Source: a virus
Length of the DNA stretch: 32,978 nt
IMG/VR virus record: IMGVR_UViG_3300003885_000851
Span: 1 to 32,978 of that record
Strand: one strand, 5' to 3'
How positions within the stretch are numbered: the first letter of the stretch is position 1; each line of letters starts with the position of its first letter. Below, one piece after another: positions 1,035-27,150 of the stretch. Position numbers and translations under genes: made by a program. The notes beneath the pieces are model-generated. The model worked only from the letters and a program-made list of their open reading frames with translations, had not been told where the DNA came from and did no database searches.

Positions 1035-3683
1035 ATGAAAAAAGGAAATAAAAATTTAGAAATATTAAAAGAAGTTAATCCTAATCTTTTAAAATGGATT
1101 AAAGAATCTAAGCAACCAGAATGGTTTAATTTAATTACCAGCAGGAATAATAAATTTAACATGCTAGTAAAGATTGGAACAACACAGCAACCGGCTTATG
1201 ATTTAGACGACCCGGAAAAGACAGTTAAATTAGTTGTTGACCAATGGGAATTTTTCAGAGATGATATAACCGTTATAGTAGGAATGGGTTTAGGATATTT
1301 AGCTCATAAGATATTAAAGAAAAAAGAAAAAGGTCATCATGTTGTAGTTGTAGAGCCGAATGGATATTTAATAAAAAAGTCTCTTGAATTATTTGATTTT
1401 TCAAAATGGCTTAAGAATAATACTTTGATATTTGCCAGTCCTGGTAAAAGTGAAATTTCTTTTATTGTTAGTATTATGGAGACAATAAAAGTTGTAAATA
1501 ATTGGAACATGATGATTGAGCCATATTCTTTAAAATGTATGGAATACTCCGACTTGACTCTATACACAACAGACTTGATAAATCAAATTCGATGCAATAC
1601 GGGAACGGTTTGCGGGGCCGGTGCTGTGATAGCCGAGAATGATATAAAGAATCTCCCCTATGTAGTTCGACACAGGGGAGTCGAGGAGCTAACAAACATC
1701 TATAAAGATAAACCTGCAGTACTGGTTAGCACTGGGCCAAGTTTACAAAAAAATATTCATTTACTTAAGGACATTCGGGACAAAGTTATTATAATTGCAG
1801 TTGCCCAGGCGCTGCGAATATTAAAAGGTTATGGAATAGATCCGGATTTTATCACAACGGTCGATTATGGAGATGTAAATTATGGTCATTTTCGCGGTTT
1901 GTTTGATAGCATGGTGCCTCTTGTGTGCCTTAATCGTTCGTACTTTAAGATTATTAAAAATTGGCAGGGGCCAAAATTTATAGTTGGAACTCCTGTCCCC
2001 GGGCATGAAGATACAATATCCGGTATAATCGAAAAGAAAGGATACATAGAGCAGGGTGGGAGCGTGTCTCACATGAATTTGGGTTTAGCATTAAAACTTG
2101 GTTGTAATCCGATTGCAATCATAGGTCAAGACCTTTCCTATGTAACCGAGAAAAGTCATATTAACGATGTTGATGAAGGTGGCAAGATCAAGGTTGAGAA
2201 TGGGATTATAAAATGGAAAGTTACTGATCATAGGAGTAATTTGCATAAACATAAGGAGATCAGTATGGGTGTTGCTCACTATGTGCCTGGATATTTCGGA
2301 GGTAATGTTTTAACTAATTTAGGTTTGGCATCATTTATCACTTCATTCGAAAATATCATTGAAAGATATAAAGGTTTTGATATATTCAATTGCACCCAAG
2401 GCGGTGTTAAGATGAAAGGTATGAAACAATTAGTTTTGGCTGAGTTCATTAAACGATATTGCAAGAATATAATCAAAAAGAAAGAAATTAAAAAATTATA
2501 TCCTTTGATTGACAACGTTAAAGAATACACTTTTAATACAATAAAAGTTCTTGAATCTGATTTGGAAGTTTTGAAAAATGTGATATATTATTGTAAAGAG
2601 GCTTTAGAAACCGCCAAGCAAATGAAGGAATGCCCTAAGTCTGAATTAAAGGGCTGGATACAAAAGAATAAAACATTGAGTAATAAGGCCCATGAATATG
2701 CCAAGAAAAATTCTCTTGTTGGAGTTGCTATATTTCAAGCAAGCCGTGAGATTCATTCCAGGGAACTAAAGATAAAGGCCAGGCCGATAGACCTAATAAA
2801 CGATAAAAAACTTCTCTTGATTCGGGTAAAGCGAAATGAGTTGATATTAAATGCAGCTAATAAAGCATCGGAGAAATTAAAAAAGCATTATTTAGAAGCG
2901 TTAAGAATATTAAAAGAATATCAAACGACACAGGATGAAAGCTTATTACAGGGAAGCGATGACGAGAAAATTGACATGAGCGATGCAGAAAAATTCTTAA
3001 GTGAAAATAACTTTGCACGCCCTTTGATAATAGTAGAAAAAATATTGAAAAGCGTTAATAATGGACATGATCTAGATAGGGCTAGGGAGATTCAAAAAAT
3101 ATGTTTAGAGAAGCGGGCTGATAATATTGAAAAAGCAAAAGGCGTCGATTCTAAATATGAACAGAATTTAATTGATTATAATGATTTAATCGACAATGCT
3201 CAAACCGTAGGTAGAGAAAAAAAGGACTGGAAGACGTCTTTAGGATATTTAAGAAAAGCAATCAAAATCATTCCTGATAAAATTGAAGCGCGCTGGGGCT
3301 GCGCAACAACCTATAATCACATAGGAGACATAGACAAAGCAATAACAGAGTATAAAAAGTTAATAAAAGATTTTCCTGATAATTTAAGATTTCAATTTGA
3401 ATATGGTCAGGTTTTAATCAGGAAAGATTTGAAGGCCGGCTTAAAGCAGATCGGTGAGGTAATGGATAAGACTAAAGAGTTTGATTCATTCCTGGGTATT
3501 ATAGGTGACATGCACAAAAATGCTAAAATGTATAATGAGGCTATAGATATATATAAAGAATATTTAGATTTATTTCCTCTTGATTTGAAAGCAATGGAGA
3601 ACCTTGAGTGGTGTTATAAAGAAGTGGGGAAAAAAGAAGAAGCTAGTTTGATAAATAAAAAATTAGTTGAAATAAAGGTATAA
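1035..3683 (+). CDS. DUF115/MptE-like protein with TPR-like C-terminus
   Basis: This 882-aa protein has an N-terminal Rossmann-like segment (IVGMGLGYLA, residues 81-90, then VVVVEP). The DUF115 core runs from about residue 205 to 400, with PAVLVSTGPSLQKN near 227-240, a VDYGD motif at 276-280 and GGSVSHMNLGLALKLG further on. The middle is a long helical Lys/Glu-rich stretch. About residues 735-880 look like TPR repeats (AITEYKKLIKDFPDN, AIDIYKEYLDLFPLD). Known DUF115 proteins include archaeal MptE, a hydroxymethyldihydropterin diphosphokinase, and Maf flagellin-glycosylation proteins that transfer nonulosonic acids. The phage role is unknown; modifying a virion protein or host surface is a guess. 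It is much longer than MptE. Confidence 0.85.
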   Translation: MKKGNKNLEILKEVNPNLLKWIKESKQPEWFNLITSRNNKFNMLVKIGTTQQPAYDLDDPEKTVKLVVDQWEFFRDDITVIVGMGLGYLAHKILKKKEKGHHVVVVEPNGYLIKKSLELFDFSKWLKNNTLIFASPGKSEISFIVSIMETIKVVNNWNMMIEPYSLKCMEYSDLTLYTTDLINQIRCNTGTVCGAGAVIAENDIKNLPYVVRHRGVEELTNIYKDKPAVLVSTGPSLQKNIHLLKDIRDKVIIIAVAQALRILKGYGIDPDFITTVDYGDVNYGHFRGLFDSMVPLVCLNRSYFKIIKNWQGPKFIVGTPVPGHEDTISGIIEKKGYIEQGGSVSHMNLGLALKLGCNPIAIIGQDLSYVTEKSHINDVDEGGKIKVENGIIKWKVTDHRSNLHKHKEISMGVAHYVPGYFGGNVLTNLGLASFITSFENIIERYKGFDIFNCTQGGVKMKGMKQLVLAEFIKRYCKNIIKKKEIKKLYPLIDNVKEYTFNTIKVLESDLEVLKNVIYYCKEALETAKQMKECPKSELKGWIQKNKTLSNKAHEYAKKNSLVGVAIFQASREIHSRELKIKARPIDLINDKKLLLIRVKRNELILNAANKASEKLKKHYLEALRILKEYQTTQDESLLQGSDDEKIDMSDAEKFLSENNFARPLIIVEKILKSVNNGHDLDRAREIQKICLEKRADNIEKAKGVDSKYEQNLIDYNDLIDNAQTVGREKKDWKTSLGYLRKAIKIIPDKIEARWGCATTYNHIGDIDKAITEYKKLIKDFPDNLRFQFEYGQVLIRKDLKAGLKQIGEVMDKTKEFDSFLGIIGDMHKNAKMYNEAIDIYKEYLDLFPLDLKAMENLEWCYKEVGKKEEASLINKKLVEIKV

Positions 3684-4273
3684 TGAAAAAAGAAATAATA
3701 ATGTCATATAATACTACAATAAAAAAATTGCAATTAAAGTCACTTATGGAATTTCCTGATAATCCTCAAGTAGTATCAGAAGATAAAATGATTTTAATGG
3801 TAAATGATATGAGAAAGTTTGGCTGGTATGGAGAGCTTTCAACAATCGCCATATTGGATAAAAAGTTTTATGTTATATCAGGTAATCATAGAGTTCAGGC
3901 AGCAATTAGAGCAGGAATTTTGGATCAAGATTGCATTGTGATTGATGATTCGAATTATAACTGGCTACAAGCAAAAAAAGATTGTGTTAAATTTAATACT
4001 ATACATGGCGATCCGGATGATCAATTATTAGGTAAATTTATAAATAATATAACAGATGAATTTGATATAAATATTGATGAGATAGTTGATGATTTAGGGA
4101 TGAATCAAGATGAAATGAATAAATTATTTCAGAATAAAGATGCAAAAGATTTGAGTAATAAACTTAAAAGTGAATTTGAAATAATTATTGAATGTGAAAA
4201 TGAAAATGAAATGGAAGAAAGATATAATAGATTAAGAAAATTAGGATATAAATGCAGACTTTTAACATTTTAA
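3683..4273 (+). CDS. ParB/sulfiredoxin-fold domain protein
   Basis: A 196-aa protein whose first half has the ParB N-terminal layout: an LKSLMEFPDNPQ strand-turn, then a strand and the nucleotide-binding box VISGNHRVQAAIRAG (GNHR at 67-70), matching the GERR/GNHR box of the ParB/Srx superfamily. Members bind or hydrolyse nucleotides (CTP in chromosomal ParB) and some are nucleases. The second half is acidic and helical with no ParB DNA-binding HTH seen, so plasmid partition is unlikely. The start overlaps the DUF115 stop (TAATG); a second ATG at 3701 is possible. Its end overlaps the ABC ATPase start by 22 nt, so the two are probably coupled. Confidence 0.8.
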   Translation: MKKEIIMSYNTTIKKLQLKSLMEFPDNPQVVSEDKMILMVNDMRKFGWYGELSTIAILDKKFYVISGNHRVQAAIRAGILDQDCIVIDDSNYNWLQAKKDCVKFNTIHGDPDDQLLGKFINNITDEFDINIDEIVDDLGMNQDEMNKLFQNKDAKDLSNKLKSEFEIIIECENENEMEERYNRLRKLGYKCRLLTF

Positions 4274-4932
4274 AAAAAAGTAAAATAAAAGATTCATTTA
4301 GAAATAATCTTGTTATAAATAAATTTGATTTACAGATAAAAAATATAGAGGAGGAATTTAGTGGACAAATAGACATTCCGGAAAACTGGAATATCGGTGT
4401 TATTGTTGGGAATTCAGGTACCGGAAAAAGTATAATTGCAAAACAACTATTTAAAAACAATTATATAAATAAATTTGATTATGATAATAATTCAATTATT
4501 GATAATATATCAAAAGATATAAAAATTGATGAAATTTTGAAAGTTTTAGGTTCTGTCGGTTTTTCTACTCCAAAAAGCTGGCTAAAATCATATCACGTTT
4601 TAAGTAACGGTGAGTGTATGAGAGTTGATTTAGCCAGGGCAATATTAGAAAAAAATGATTTAATTGTATTTGATGAATATACTTCTGTGATAGACAGAAA
4701 TGTTGCCAAATTTGGATCGTTGGCAATTCAAAAATCAATCAGGAAATTAAACAAACAATTTATTGCTGTATCATGTCATTTTGATATACTTGAATGGTTA
4801 CAACCGGATTGGATATTTGATACAAATAAAATGGACATGATTAAGGTAAAAAAAAACCACAAATACGAATTGAAATATTTGAATATAGAGATAAATCAAT
4901 TTGGAAATACTTTAGCAAATATCATTATTTAA
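4252..4932 (+). CDS. Soluble ABC-type ATPase, zero-frame part of an ABC-GNAT product
   Basis: An ABC ATPase domain with a full motif set: Walker A GNSGTGKS at 53-60, signature LSNGE at 117-121 (variant of LSGGQ), Walker B LIVFDE at 137-142 followed by YTSVID, and the switch His in VSCHFD at 176. No membrane segments are present and no permease is nearby, so it is not a transporter in the usual sense. The homologous-looking region ends around DWIFDTNKMDM. The last 30 or so residues of this frame after the A9 run are low-complexity and look like out-of-frame reading. The natural product is probably the fusion with the GNAT frame at 4857-5309, about 352 aa in all. Confidence 0.85.
   Translation: MQTFNILKKSKIKDSFRNNLVINKFDLQIKNIEEEFSGQIDIPENWNIGVIVGNSGTGKSIIAKQLFKNNYINKFDYDNNSIIDNISKDIKIDEILKVLGSVGFSTPKSWLKSYHVLSNGECMRVDLARAILEKNDLIVFDEYTSVIDRNVAKFGSLAIQKSIRKLNKQFIAVSCHFDILEWLQPDWIFDTNKMDMIKVKKNHKYELKYLNIEINQFGNTLANIII
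4848..4857 (+). other. A9 slippery run, candidate -1 frameshift or transcriptional slippage site
   Basis: Nine A residues (4848-4856) followed by C. In the ABC frame the heptamer A AAA AAC falls at 4851-4857 in the correct phase for tandem -1 slippage, and A AAA AAA at 4848-4854 also fits. After -1 slippage the next codon is CCA at 4857 and the frame stays open to 5309. Insertion of one A by RNA polymerase would give the same result; runs of nine A or T are known to be slippery. A miscounted homopolymer (A10 in the real genome) is the main alternative. Confidence 0.6.
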
Positions 4933-5309
4933 GTCATAGTCATAATAATGCTGCACGGATATTTTTGTTAACTACAAGTAATAATTTAGTAGGATTTATT
5001 TCAGTTTTATTCCAACCGAATCCGCATGCTAGAATGTGGCGAGTACATAGATTAGTTGTTTTGCCTGATTTTCAAGGAATTGGGCTTGGTAAAATATTAT
5101 TAAATAATATAGCAAAGTATTACAAAAATAAGTATAAAAATGAGAAATTTTTTATTAAAACATCGAGTCCAGCTTTATTACTATCATTAAAAAATCAAGA
5201 TAAATGGAAGTTAAGATATCTTGGTAGGACGACGGGACATAAAAATTTGAGCAGTTATAATAAAACTATAAGCAGTAAAAGGAAAACATACTCATGGGAA
5301 TATGTATAG
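4857..5309 (+). CDS. Mom-like GNAT domain in the -1 frame, no start codon of its own
   Basis: This frame is open from 4845 and has no ATG, GTG or TTG before TTG 4965, which is already inside the domain. The sequence before that TTG is not random: it reads IWKYFSKYHYLSHSHNNAAR, a His/Tyr-rich box I associate from memory with ABC-linked GNAT proteins of phages. It then continues through VGFISVLFQPNPHARMWRVH and the acetyl-CoA motif LPDFQGIGLGKILL, with SSPALLLSLK near the end. Translation is therefore probably by -1 slippage from the ABC gene. Phage Mu Mom is a GNAT-fold enzyme that modifies adenine, so a DNA-base substrate is the leading idea. An ordinary protein or small-molecule acetyltransferase is not excluded. 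Confidence 0.7.
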   Translation, partial: PQIRIEIFEYRDKSIWKYFSKYHYLSHSHNNAARIFLLTTSNNLVGFISVLFQPNPHARMWRVHRLVVLPDFQGIGLGKILLNNIAKYYKNKYKNEKFFIKTSSPALLLSLKNQDKWKLRYLGRTTGHKNLSSYNKTISSKRKTYSWEYV

Positions 5310-5349
5310 GCACTTGTATCTAGAAAGGTTATAAAAATTATAAAAAAGC

Positions 5350-5379
5350 TTGACTTTTATTTAGCTTATGTTCTATTAC
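5350..5379 (+). promoter_or_regulatory. Sigma70-like promoter before the ASCH gene
   Basis: TTGACT (-35) at 5350-5355, an 18-nt spacer, then TATTAC (-10) at 5374-5379. It lies in the 96-nt gap between the GNAT frame and the ASCH gene, the first sizeable gap since the left edge of the window. An AAAGAGGA ribosome binding site follows at 5393-5400. It could start the message for ASCH and the terminase genes. No hairpin terminator was seen just upstream, so read-through is likely. Confidence 0.5.
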
Positions 5380-5405
5380 ATATAGAAACATTAAAGAGGA
5401 ATAAA

Positions 5406-5741
5406 ATGAAAAATATGAGTTTTGCTTTGACTGTTGAACAATTCAGAAACGAAACAAAAACTGTTACAAGGAGAATCGGTTGGAATTCTTTAAAACCAGG
5501 TGATATTTTATATGGAGTTAAGAAAGCGATGGGATTAAAAAAGGGTGAAAAGATAGAAAAAATGGGTAAAATTAAAATATTATCAGTAAGAAAAGAATCA
5601 ATATTAGCTATCTCGAAAAGTGATGTGGCTAAAGAAGGATTTCCCGAATGGTCACGTAAAAAATTTATAGCTTTAATAATGAATTGCTATAAATTGAATC
5701 TTAATTCTACAATAAATAGAATAGAATTTGAGTATATTTAA
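5406..5741 (+). CDS. ASCH-domain protein
   Basis: A 111-aa protein with the ASCH/PUA-like pattern: SFALTVEQFRNETKTVTRR near the N-terminus (the TKTxTRR box), then GWNSLKPGDILYGV, MGLKKGEKI, GKIKILSVRKE and a final strand RIEFEYI. ASCH domains bind nucleic acids or modified nucleosides, and E. coli YqfB, an ASCH protein, hydrolyses N4-acetylcytidine. Phage copies are usually this short. Position directly after the ParB/ABC/GNAT genes suggests a reader or eraser of an acylated base; that is inference. It has its own promoter and a good ribosome binding site, so it may be expressed apart from the cassette. It ends just before the small terminase. Confidence 0.8.
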   Translation: MKNMSFALTVEQFRNETKTVTRRIGWNSLKPGDILYGVKKAMGLKKGEKIEKMGKIKILSVRKESILAISKSDVAKEGFPEWSRKKFIALIMNCYKLNLNSTINRIEFEYI

Positions 5742-5742
5742 T

Positions 5743-6255
5743 ATGAAAATTGGTAGAAAATTAAAACTCACTAAAGAACTCATAAAAGAATTTGAGGATC
5801 TTATTAAAACTGGTCAATATGCTAATACTGTTTGTGACTATTTAAATATATCAGAGGAATCATTTTATAGATGGATTAGAGAAGGAAACCCGGATATAAA
5901 TGAGAATATAGATGAAAGATCCGAGGAAGATCATGAACTCAAGACTGAATTTTATGAGGCTATAAAAAGAGCAAAGGCCCAAGCCGAAATAAGAAATGTT
6001 TCAGTAATCCAAAAAGCTAGTATTCAGAATTGGACAGCAGCCGCCTGGTGGTTAGAAAGAACCAACTGGAAGAAATGGGGGCGTAAGGATAAAATTGAAG
6101 CTAATATATCCGGTGAAATAAAAAATAAAATAAACATAGGTGATGAAACAATTGACCACTTCGCAGACGTTCTCAAAATCCTACTTGATGCAGGCCTTGT
6201 CAAACAAGGCGACACAGGAAGCCCTGAAGAAAAGCCTGACCCCGAAATGGAATAA
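5743..6255 (+). CDS. terS: Terminase small subunit
   Basis: A protein of about 170 aa with an N-terminal helix-turn-helix (KLTKELIKEFEDLIKTGQYA, then VCDYLNISEESFYRWIREG), then a helical oligomerisation region (AIKRAKAQAEIRNVSVIQKA) and a WWLERTNWKKWGRK segment typical of small terminases. It binds the packaging site and hands DNA to the large subunit. I chose ATG 5743 because it sits just after the ASCH stop; TTG 5728 in the same frame would add five residues. It overlaps the large subunit gene, as usual for this pair. Confidence 0.8.
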   Translation: MKIGRKLKLTKELIKEFEDLIKTGQYANTVCDYLNISEESFYRWIREGNPDINENIDERSEEDHELKTEFYEAIKRAKAQAEIRNVSVIQKASIQNWTAAAWWLERTNWKKWGRKDKIEANISGEIKNKINIGDETIDHFADVLKILLDAGLVKQGDTGSPEEKPDPEME

Positions 6256-7489
6256 GTACATATCATTTAAGCCCACCGCAAAGCAGAGAGCATTTTTATT
6301 ATTAGACCATGTTCGAGATCTTTTTTACGGCGGCGCAGCGGGAGGCGGGAAAACTAGTACTCTTTTAATAGCTGCTTTGCAATATGTAGACGTACCCGGT
6401 TACGCAGCATTATTATTAAGAGATACATTTAAAAATTTATCAATGCCAGGTTCTCTAATGGATTTAGCAGAGGACTGGCTAGCGGGGACTGATGCTGTTT
6501 GGAAGGGGGAAATAAAAAAATGGGAGTTTTCTTCCGGATCATCATTGTCTTTTGGATACCTAGACGGGCCTAGAGACCATTTGAATTTTAAGAGCGCGGA
6601 GTTTCAATTTATTGGTATCGATGAGGCTTCGGATTTGCGCTGGTCACAGATTATATATATGTGGTCACGGTTAAGGAAAAAAAAAGAATCTAACATCCCA
6701 CTTAGATTTCGTTTGACCTCCAACCCCGGGGGCATAAGTCATCAAGAATTAAAAGACAGATATATAGATAAAAAGACAAGGAAAAAAGGTTCTGTATTTA
6801 TACCTGCCGGATTAAATGATAATCCACATTTGAATAAAGAACAATATATAGAAAGTCTTAATCAGCTTGATCCAATTACCAGGGCTCAGCTTTTAGATGG
6901 CGACTGGGATGTTAGGTCGTCGGGCCGAATGTTCAAAAGAGAATGGTTTAAATTTGTTGATGAAGTTCCTCAAGATGCAATTCGAGTTCGATACTGGGAT
7001 ATGGCAGCAACCGAGCCGTCAAAGAAAAATCGTGATCCTGATTATACCGTAGGTTGCAAAATTGCAATGACAAAGGAAGGATTATTTTATATTGAATCTA
7101 TTATCAGGCATCAAAAAACACCCAGGGAGACAGAGCAGATAATCAGGCAAACAGCGGAGTTGGATGGAAAAGAAGTTGCTGTTTGGCTTGAGCAGGAACC
7201 AGGCAGCTCAGGAAAGGCAATCATTGATCATTATCATAGGAATATACTTCCTCAATATAATTTTCATGGTGATAAGGTAACAGGATCAAAGCAGCAACGG
7301 GCTGCTCCATTTAGTTCCAAGTGTGAAGCTGGTTACATTTATTTAGTCAAAGCAGAATGGAACGCAAAATTTTTAGATGAGATGGAACTTTTCCCGGACG
7401 GGAATCATGATGACCAAACTGACTCAGTTAGCGGGTCATTTTCTAAACTTGCCGGTACACTTTCAACCCCACGAATTAGAGTAGTTTAA
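6140..7489 (+). CDS. terL: Terminase large subunit
   Basis: A 449-aa DNA-packaging motor with an N-terminal ATPase and C-terminal nuclease. Walker A is GGAAGGGKT at 64-72 and Walker B FIGIDE at 157-162, followed by ASDLRW. The coupling motif is probably in RLTSNPGG. The RNase H-like nuclease has acidic residues in RYWDMA (D287), EQEPGSSGKA and DGNHDDQTDS (424-428). The start is uncertain: ATG 6140 gives 116 nt of overlap with terS, and ATG 6188 is the next choice. Conserved sequence begins near LTPKWNKY (residue 33), which both starts keep. Complete and apparently intact. Confidence 0.95.
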   Translation: MMKQLTTSQTFSKSYLMQALSNKATQEALKKSLTPKWNKYISFKPTAKQRAFLLLDHVRDLFYGGAAGGGKTSTLLIAALQYVDVPGYAALLLRDTFKNLSMPGSLMDLAEDWLAGTDAVWKGEIKKWEFSSGSSLSFGYLDGPRDHLNFKSAEFQFIGIDEASDLRWSQIIYMWSRLRKKKESNIPLRFRLTSNPGGISHQELKDRYIDKKTRKKGSVFIPAGLNDNPHLNKEQYIESLNQLDPITRAQLLDGDWDVRSSGRMFKREWFKFVDEVPQDAIRVRYWDMAATEPSKKNRDPDYTVGCKIAMTKEGLFYIESIIRHQKTPRETEQIIRQTAELDGKEVAVWLEQEPGSSGKAIIDHYHRNILPQYNFHGDKVTGSKQQRAAPFSSKCEAGYIYLVKAEWNAKFLDEMELFPDGNHDDQTDSVSGSFSKLAGTLSTPRIRVV

Positions 7490-26184: not shown

Positions 26185-27150
26185 ATGCACAGAATAGAGG
26201 GACTGAATAATATAGAGGACATAAACGGTAATAAGATATTTACCGATGGTCCTCCGGCAACTACACTACCGGCTGTTTTTATGAACGCTTTGCAGGAAGA
26301 GATTGCAAACGTAATAGAAACGGCCGGTTTAGCCTTGAAGTCTGCTGGGAGTGATACAAAAACACAGCTTCGAGATGCCCTGGCATTAGATTTCATAACA
26401 GCCGGTGAAGATCCTTTGTATGTAGATAAGGTTAATGACAGGGTTGGAATAATGGACTCCACTCCGAGCTATGAACTAGACGTAAATGGCGATGTAAGAA
26501 TAACCGGTTCATTGATAACACAAGTTAGTTGGATACGTGCGGCTCAGATCGGAAATGACTTGAACATAGCCGGAGTAAGCGACCTCGCGTTAGCAGCGTT
26601 AAACGGAACCGATGTGGCATTTATTGATTCGGGCAATAATGATCTCCGTGTTTATAGGTTTGACGGCACGAACTGGGCCCAGATCGGAAATGACTTGAAC
26701 ATAGCCGGAGTAGGCTTTCCCGCGTTAGCAGCGTTAAACGGAACCGATGTGGCATTTATTGACAGCACAAATATTGATCTCCGTGTTTATAGGTTTGACG
26801 GCACGAACTGCACCCGCGTTAGCAGCGTTAAACGGAACCGATGTGGCATTTATTGACAGCGCAAATATTGATCTCCGTGTTTATAGGTTTGACGGCACGA
26901 ACTGGGCTCAGGTCGGAAATGATCTAAACATAGCCGGAGTAGGCGTATCCGCGTTAGCAGCGTTAAACGGAACCGATGTGGCATTTATTGACAGCACAAA
27001 TATTGATCTCCGTGTTTATAGGTTTGACGGCACGAACTGAACGGAACCGATGTGGCATTTATTGATTCGGGCAATGATGATCTCCGTGTATATAGGTTTG
27101 CATACAGTATCTCCGGCCTGGCTCATAGTCCCATCAACCCGGATTTTTAA
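26185..27150 (+). pseudogene. Repeat-built tail fibre, frame broken twice
   Basis: The gene starts at ATG 26185 with a fibre N-terminus (DGPPATTLPAVFMNALQEEIANVIETAGLALKSAG), then VNDRVGIMDSTPSYELDVNGDVRI, a peptidase-type chaperone-less fibre body. From 26545 it consists of 45-residue repeats with IDSTNIDLRVYRFDGTNWAQ and GNDLNIAGV, resembling beta-propeller blades. The frame is lost at 26811 and stops at 26856 (223 aa). Repeats 3 and 4 read in another frame to TGA 27038, and repeat 5 returns to the first frame and ends at TAA 27148, just before the next gene's ribosome binding site. The whole span was probably one gene; what is made now is a 223-aa truncated protein. An assembly error in the repeats is possible. 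Confidence 0.7.
26545..27100 (+). repeat. Five near-identical 135-bp repeats with 41-bp and 61-bp deletions
   Basis: Repeat starts: 26545, 26680, 26811 (first part missing), 26909 and 27040 (first part missing). Full units are 135 bp. Aligning CCCGCG between repeats 2 and 3 gives 94 bp instead of 135, a loss of 41; aligning AACGGAACC between repeats 4 and 5 gives 74, a loss of 61. Together 102 bp, or 34 codons, so the first frame is restored. Differences between copies are few (CAAATATTG versus GCAATAATG, GGCTTTC versus GGCGTAT), so duplication is recent or copies are kept alike by recombination. Confidence 0.9.

Follow-up and report, generated by a model that had tools for sequence, protein, structure and literature searches.

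The analyzed window, a virus record of 32,978 bases, encodes terminase, portal, capsid and tail proteins on its plus strand. To the left of the gene for the small terminase subunit lies a cassette consisting, in this order, of a gene for a ParB-fold protein, an ABC ATPase gene, a GNAT reading frame and a small ORF with a TKTVTRR box (Table 1). The true start of the large terminase subunit is probably near position 6230. In an earlier note, made from the sequence alone, the region was described as a run of consecutive genes or domains more AT-rich than the structural genes; the three ORFs and the GNAT reading were confirmed, as was the composition (GC content of 22–29% versus 33–48% in the structural genes). 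Positions 1–1500 of the window are mostly as AT-rich as the cassette.

Table 1. Features of the cassette and of the adjoining terminase genes in the window (aa, amino acids; nt, nucleotides).
Feature	Position	Strand	Evidence or remark
ParB-fold protein, 196 aa, GNHR box	3683–4273	+	PHROG_620, E = 3.6e-15
AGGA, likely ribosome-binding site of the ABC gene	4243–4246	+	within the ParB gene, 5 nt before ATG 4252
ABC ATPase, zero-frame product of 226 aa	4252–4932	+	Pfam ABC_tran, E = 4.8e-10; PHROG_11143, E = 1e-61
A9 run, slippery site	4848–4856	+	A_AAA_AAC at 4851–4857, in the phase of the ABC frame
GNAT domain, −1 frame	4857–5309	+	Pfam, E = 7e-9; ABC-GNAT product of ~352 aa
Zero-frame tail of the ABC-only product	4858–4932	+	stop overlaps the HYL motif
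Predicted RNA hairpin	4866–4903	+	−9.2 kcal/mol, 8 nt 3' of the slippery heptamer
Probable ASCH/PUA-like protein, 111 aa, TKTVTRR	5406–5741	+	relatives 39–44% identical
Terminase small subunit	5743–6255	+	PHROG_4102, E = 2.8e-31
Terminase large subunit ORF	6140–7489	+	PHROG_979, E = 4.9e-113

The ParB, ABC and GNAT assignments were upheld by Pfam or PHROG matches, whereas the ASCH label of the small ORF proved weak, with no Pfam match to PF04266. A relative of this ORF from an archaeal virus, 42% identical to it, matched PF04266 weakly (E = 0.009). The ParB protein of the window had no Pfam match of its own but matched PHROG_498 (ParB-DNA methyltransferase; E = 1.1e-15) and resembles the N-terminus of ParB-methyltransferase proteins; the ParB proteins of related loci matched PF02195 (best E = 4e-11). 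A tblastn search with the window ParB in phages yielded no match, its kinship being visible by profiles only. A PADLOC search returned only partial matches, generic for the most part.

The joint between the ABC and GNAT frames

The zero-frame product comprises an ABC domain of about 194 aa followed by an out-of-frame tail. The GNAT frame, which is open from position 4845 and lies at −1 relative to the ABC ORF, overlaps it by 88 nt and contains no ATG, GTG or TTG before position 4965; the TTG ORF at 4965–5309 corresponds to a truncated GNAT that lacks 40 residues. An AlphaFold model of 4845–5306 had a pLDDT of 89.8 and was matched to GNAT structures by Foldseek (E = 3e-7). In this model the first strand and helix are built from residues whose codons begin at about 4869, and the invariant W and HYL are likewise encoded upstream of 4965, so a start at 4965 would break the domain. 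PHROG_11143 is a single profile of 357 residues, to which the ABC ORF aligned at 3–199 and the GNAT at 238–349, and the model of a fused relative showed an ABC domain (Z of about 15 against ABC cassettes) followed by a GNAT domain. With no start before its first 40 residues and one profile spanning both parts, the GNAT is the C-terminal domain of the ABC protein and not the stand-alone gene it had been taken for. Meanwhile, the overlaps reported among the first three genes are both present, but that between the ABC and GNAT frames joins two domains of one protein. Codon-position counts in this overlap suggest constraint in both frames.

The sequence of the joint at 4846–4858 is GTAAAAAAAAACC, and the hairpin downstream of it had a z-score of −4.4 relative to dinucleotide shuffles. 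An overlapping −1 frame devoid of its own start, a heptamer in phase and a downstream structure were thus all found in the window. Judging from the sequence, the A9 run and the hairpin are arranged as in genes with a programmed −1 frameshift; the A9 run could equally act through RNA-polymerase slippage.

Related loci and their signals

The collection of 177 loci drew on phage isolates, 81 viral contigs and 80 genome contigs besides the window itself. The viral loci were supplied by alignment searches, a single-sequence search of the viral contigs having given one locus, and home-made profiles were used to locate ParB beside ABC. A ParB gene lay directly upstream of the ABC gene in 167 of the 177 loci and in 77 of 80 viral contigs of a held-out set, although the loci are mutually related and the counts are not independent; the overlap of 22 nt between the two genes was retained in 89 loci. 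The expected co-occurrence of the cassette genes was therefore borne out for ParB and ABC-GNAT, but the ASCH partner was confined to a minority: ASCH-like genes, on either strand, adjoined the cassette in about 19 loci, and ASCH is a recurrent, optional partner. The location beside packaging genes is shared by most viral loci, which adjoin terminase genes, with TerL at most four genes away in 45 of the 54 viral loci with enough sequence. In Streptococcus phage MismyG, for example, the order is ParB, ABC, GNAT, ASCH, a gene in the TerS position and TerL.

The GNAT was out of frame in 60 of the 177 loci, and in 56 of these 60 the shift was −1 (binomial p = 9e-13 against equal directions). Phages, bacteria and Bathyarchaeota all have loci with the −1 split, some of them in isolate or complete genomes. 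A run of at least seven A or T was present at the joint in 50 of the 60 split loci versus 27 of 596 control tiles cut from those genes; the other ten split loci, which had no run of at least seven, included loci of Streptococcus, Lactococcus and Oenococcus phages. When structures were scored at a constant offset from each slip site, hairpin z-scores below −2 were obtained for 13 of 46 loci of the −1 class versus 1 of 43 and 0 of 55 in the other classes; the mean z-score of the −1 class was −0.93, the hairpin being significant in a minority of its members.

ABC and GNAT were fused in one frame in 111 loci. Fifty-five of these formed a group with an A10 run at the joint (CAA AAA AAA AAT AGA CC, near-invariant; A10TAGA exactly in 52 loci), where a −1 shift or one additional A in the mRNA runs directly into the TAG; an A11 run in three loci places this TAG in frame. 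The enrichment of A runs in this class was modest in synonymous shuffles (55 observed, 32.6 expected), which control for codon use and not for descent, and the case therefore leans on how little A10-TAG varies and on the split class. No enrichment of downstream hairpins was found in the A10 class.

A different signal, with no homopolymer run, was found in the remaining in-frame relatives. It consists of GGRGG (GGAGG or GGGGG), 3 nt and CTT or GTT, as in the +1 site of prfB, and was detected in 43 of 54 scored loci versus 0.36 expected from synonymous codon shuffles, and in 57 of 74 loci of the held-out set versus 0.84 expected. The CTT version accounted for 34 of the 54 scored and 41 of the 74 held-out loci; CTT stood at a spacing of 3 nt in 33 loci and of 2 or 4 nt in two. 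Leptospira phage LE4 and Pseudoalteromonas phage SL25 are among the relatives with this type of site. In the remainder of the same genes (53.7 kb), the pattern matched once. It should be noted that about one-fifth of the in-frame loci outside the A10 group had no exact Shine-Dalgarno-(C/G)TT pattern. The A site of the prfB-type relatives is occupied by sense codons (CGG, CAA, AGG, TGG and others) and not by UGA. A +1 shift in the relatives leads to a short tail whose stop overlaps the HYL motif, and this tail was open in 54 of 54, 55 of 55 and 74 of 74 loci (expected 34.7, 26.3 and 35.4, respectively), whereas openness of the −1 control frame matched the chance expectation.

In a tree built by a quick method and rooted at the midpoint, the slippage-run loci formed one clade (97% SH-aLRT) within the wider prfB-type family, and several switches of the default frame were seen inside it. 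Homopolymer slippage appears to lead to the same pair of products in this sister clade. Taken together, the joints point to a programmed frame transition between ABC and GNAT, and members of the family probably produce the ABC protein in two forms, with GNAT and without it.

Proposed mechanism and alternatives

The reading proposed here is that a recoded ABC-GNAT protein and its ParB partner act on phage DNA, to which a probability of roughly 0.6 is assigned as a whole. The recoded fusion itself is very likely on the sequences compared, and it is likely, though slightly less so, that the two products are made on purpose. In the window, a −1 slip on the A9 run, aided by the hairpin, would be the sole route to the GNAT domain: ribosomes that do not slip would yield ABC alone (226 aa) and those that slip ABC-GNAT (~352 aa). 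ABC domains act as dimers, and a mixture of the two forms could therefore fix the number of GNAT arms per ATPase pair, both forms presumably assembling into one such dimer. ParB would bind DNA or a nucleotide and bring the complex to the phage DNA before packaging, the GNAT would move an acyl group onto a base, and the ASCH protein, where present, would read or remove the mark.

The most substantial alternative for the joint is transcriptional slippage, in which RNA polymerase copies the A9 or A10 run with one A too many or too few and mixed mRNAs give both products. Runs of 9–11 A or 7–9 T would suit it, as would the A11 run in another frame in three loci and the lack of a downstream hairpin in the A10 class, which may indeed work in this way. 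However, A7, as found in the archaeal class, is a short run for polymerase slippage, the hairpin of the window is well placed, and the prfB-type class has no run at all; polymerase slippage is regarded as possible but somewhat doubtful. That the GNAT is instead a second protein, translated from its own initiation or reinitiation site with the overlap serving translational coupling, is very improbable. Split loci are annotated as two genes, coupling is common among ABC genes (PMC3711429) and in Oenococcus and Lactococcus phages the stop codon of ABC shares bases with a TTG; against this, the first usable start in the window drops 40 residues of the fold together with the invariant W, H, Y and L, the two domains share one frame in 111 loci, and the slip signals sit exactly at the joint. 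Decay or sequencing error would be an obvious thought for frames that differ by one base at an error-prone homopolymer, yet it is hardly credible for a split that takes the same direction in 56 of 60 loci across phages, bacteria and archaea, isolate and complete genomes included, with the GNAT residues conserved and the tail frame kept open. Recoding of one ABC-GNAT protein is the preferred account of the joint.

For the substrate the balance is closer, and DNA as the acceptor of the putative acyl transfer is an even matter. The DNA reading rests on the neighbor resembling ParB-methyltransferases, the terminase setting, the ASCH partner and a published prediction: DNA-base acylation by ABC-GNAT proteins was predicted by Iyer et al. 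(2013), as cited in PMC7824862, which names phage pT24 for it. The pT24 protein belongs to the same family as the one described here (tblastn, 38% identity, E = 3e-31). That the cassette acylates a protein or tRNA, such as a host defense or packaging factor, is rather unlikely: the closest GNAT folds in the PDB are protein or small-molecule acetyltransferases and the window GNAT matches RimI-type models weakly, but a substrate is not readable from the fold alone, and the ParB, ASCH and terminase context together with the published prediction favors DNA. The lack of kinship to Mom also counts against DNA. Sequence searches of solved structures returned only generic GNAT and ABC cassette matches, and the paper on Leptospira phage LE4 contained no restriction-digest data. 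In a distant branch of the family, a formyltransferase-like gene follows ABC-GNAT, a hint that the transferred group may vary.

Comparison with known systems

The GNAT had been called Mom-like, and the proposal shares with Mom of phage Mu the GNAT fold and the ideas of DNA acylation and anti-restriction. However, profile comparison revealed no kinship (hhalign probability of 0.1%, E = 0.49 against Mu Mom), and Mom has neither an ABC domain nor a ParB partner. The closest system is that of Iyer et al. (2013) and PMC7824862, which concerns the same family, with GNAT and ABC ATPase in one protein; the accessible passages contain no frameshift, two-product design or ParB and ASCH statistics. ABC-GNAT offers a concrete protein on which the 2013 prediction of an unknown acyl base in phage DNA can be tested. 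Fusions of the ParB-CTPase fold to DNA methyltransferases or to acetyltransferases (PMC12704722), of which a ParB-acetyltransferase fusion binds GTP, likewise place a ParB-fold partner beside a modification enzyme; there ParB is fused, whereas here it has a gene of its own and its partner enzyme is ABC-GNAT.

No earlier report of ABC-GNAT recoding was found in the open-licence literature. The recoding corrects an annotation error, one protein having been entered as two genes, and the family lends itself as a natural experiment on what an enzyme gains from existing in two lengths. The chances are about equal for and against the broadest version of the proposal, namely, a DNA-marking machine of phages and archaeal viruses in which recoding would, in most lineages, set the ratio of ABC-only to ABC-GNAT through interchangeable signals at a single joint, a sense-codon prfB-type +1 site and, in one clade, slippage on A or T runs that replaces it.

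Among recoded genes, the −1 frameshift of dnaX resembles the window joint in its A-rich slippery site with a hairpin and in its short and long ATPase forms; it belongs to another protein, and in the cassette the long form gains a catalytic domain. The combination of a Shine-Dalgarno box and CUU in +1 frameshifting is taught as the case of prfB. Its site reads AGGGGG, 3 nt and CTTT (PMC12421855), and according to one source prfB accounts for every RECODE entry that has a CUU-stop +1 site (PMC10885494). The relatives of the window gene share with it a Shine-Dalgarno-like purine box, exactly 3 nt and CTT, but differ in two respects: the A site holds UGA in prfB and a sense codon in the relatives, and the +1 shift in the relatives yields the short product and is not autoregulation. 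The A-run signals may, as a guess, suit hosts with little Shine-Dalgarno pairing, in view of a few Bacteroidota loci in the slippage-run part of the tree and a remark on Flavobacterium in PMC12421855. Beside prfB there stands a second, large gene family with the prfB geometry and with no stop codon in it.

Frameshift signals and copy number among relatives

Loci from Bacteroidota (L097, L098, L100 and the A10 clade, with its near-invariant A10-TAG run at the ABC/GNAT joint) grouped with the A-run loci, apart from the Shine-Dalgarno type, and this switch of signal may be driven by the ribosome habits of the host. The ABC-GNAT gene of Tenacibaculum phage pT24, which carried no prfB-type signal, was broken by an in-frame TGA within the GNAT domain. 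In Bathyarchaeota MAGs (L105, L108-L114, L117, L118, L122, L124-L127, L129, L131, L132, L136, L137, L165, L166), A-runs (A7-A9) were the split point in all listed loci. Since ParB-ABC-GNAT occurred there in several copies per genome, with TerL near some of them, these MAGs are suggested to hold many proviruses.

Genes flanking the cassette and repeats in the window

Immediately 3' of ABC-GNAT, Gordonia, Pseudomonas and Porphyromonas phages encoded a formyltransferase-like protein. A Treponema MAG had a second GNAT copy in a different frame directly after the fused gene.

Positions of the features
Locus	Feature	Position
L008	formyltransferase-like gene (PF00551)	1805-2452
L009	formyltransferase-like gene (PF00551)	5077-5694
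L015	formyltransferase-like gene (PF00551)	5122-5595
L106	Treponema ABC-GNAT and second GNAT	3322-4870
L259	pT24 ABC-GNAT	3067-4239
Window	RimJ-type GNAT	204-773
Window	MptE-like/Maf protein	1035-3683
Window	tandem repeats	26541-27039
Window	repeat ORFs	26185-26856; 26747-27040

The tandem repeats (unit lengths of 135, 94 and 229 bases) encoded LAALNGTDVAFID..LRVYRFDGTNWAQ units, and the reading frame changed between copies. A large protein encoded immediately 5' of the cassette had TPRs at its C-terminus in addition to an MptE-like/Maf domain (Pfam E 2e-45); this protein and the RimJ-type GNAT are unusual phage cargo.
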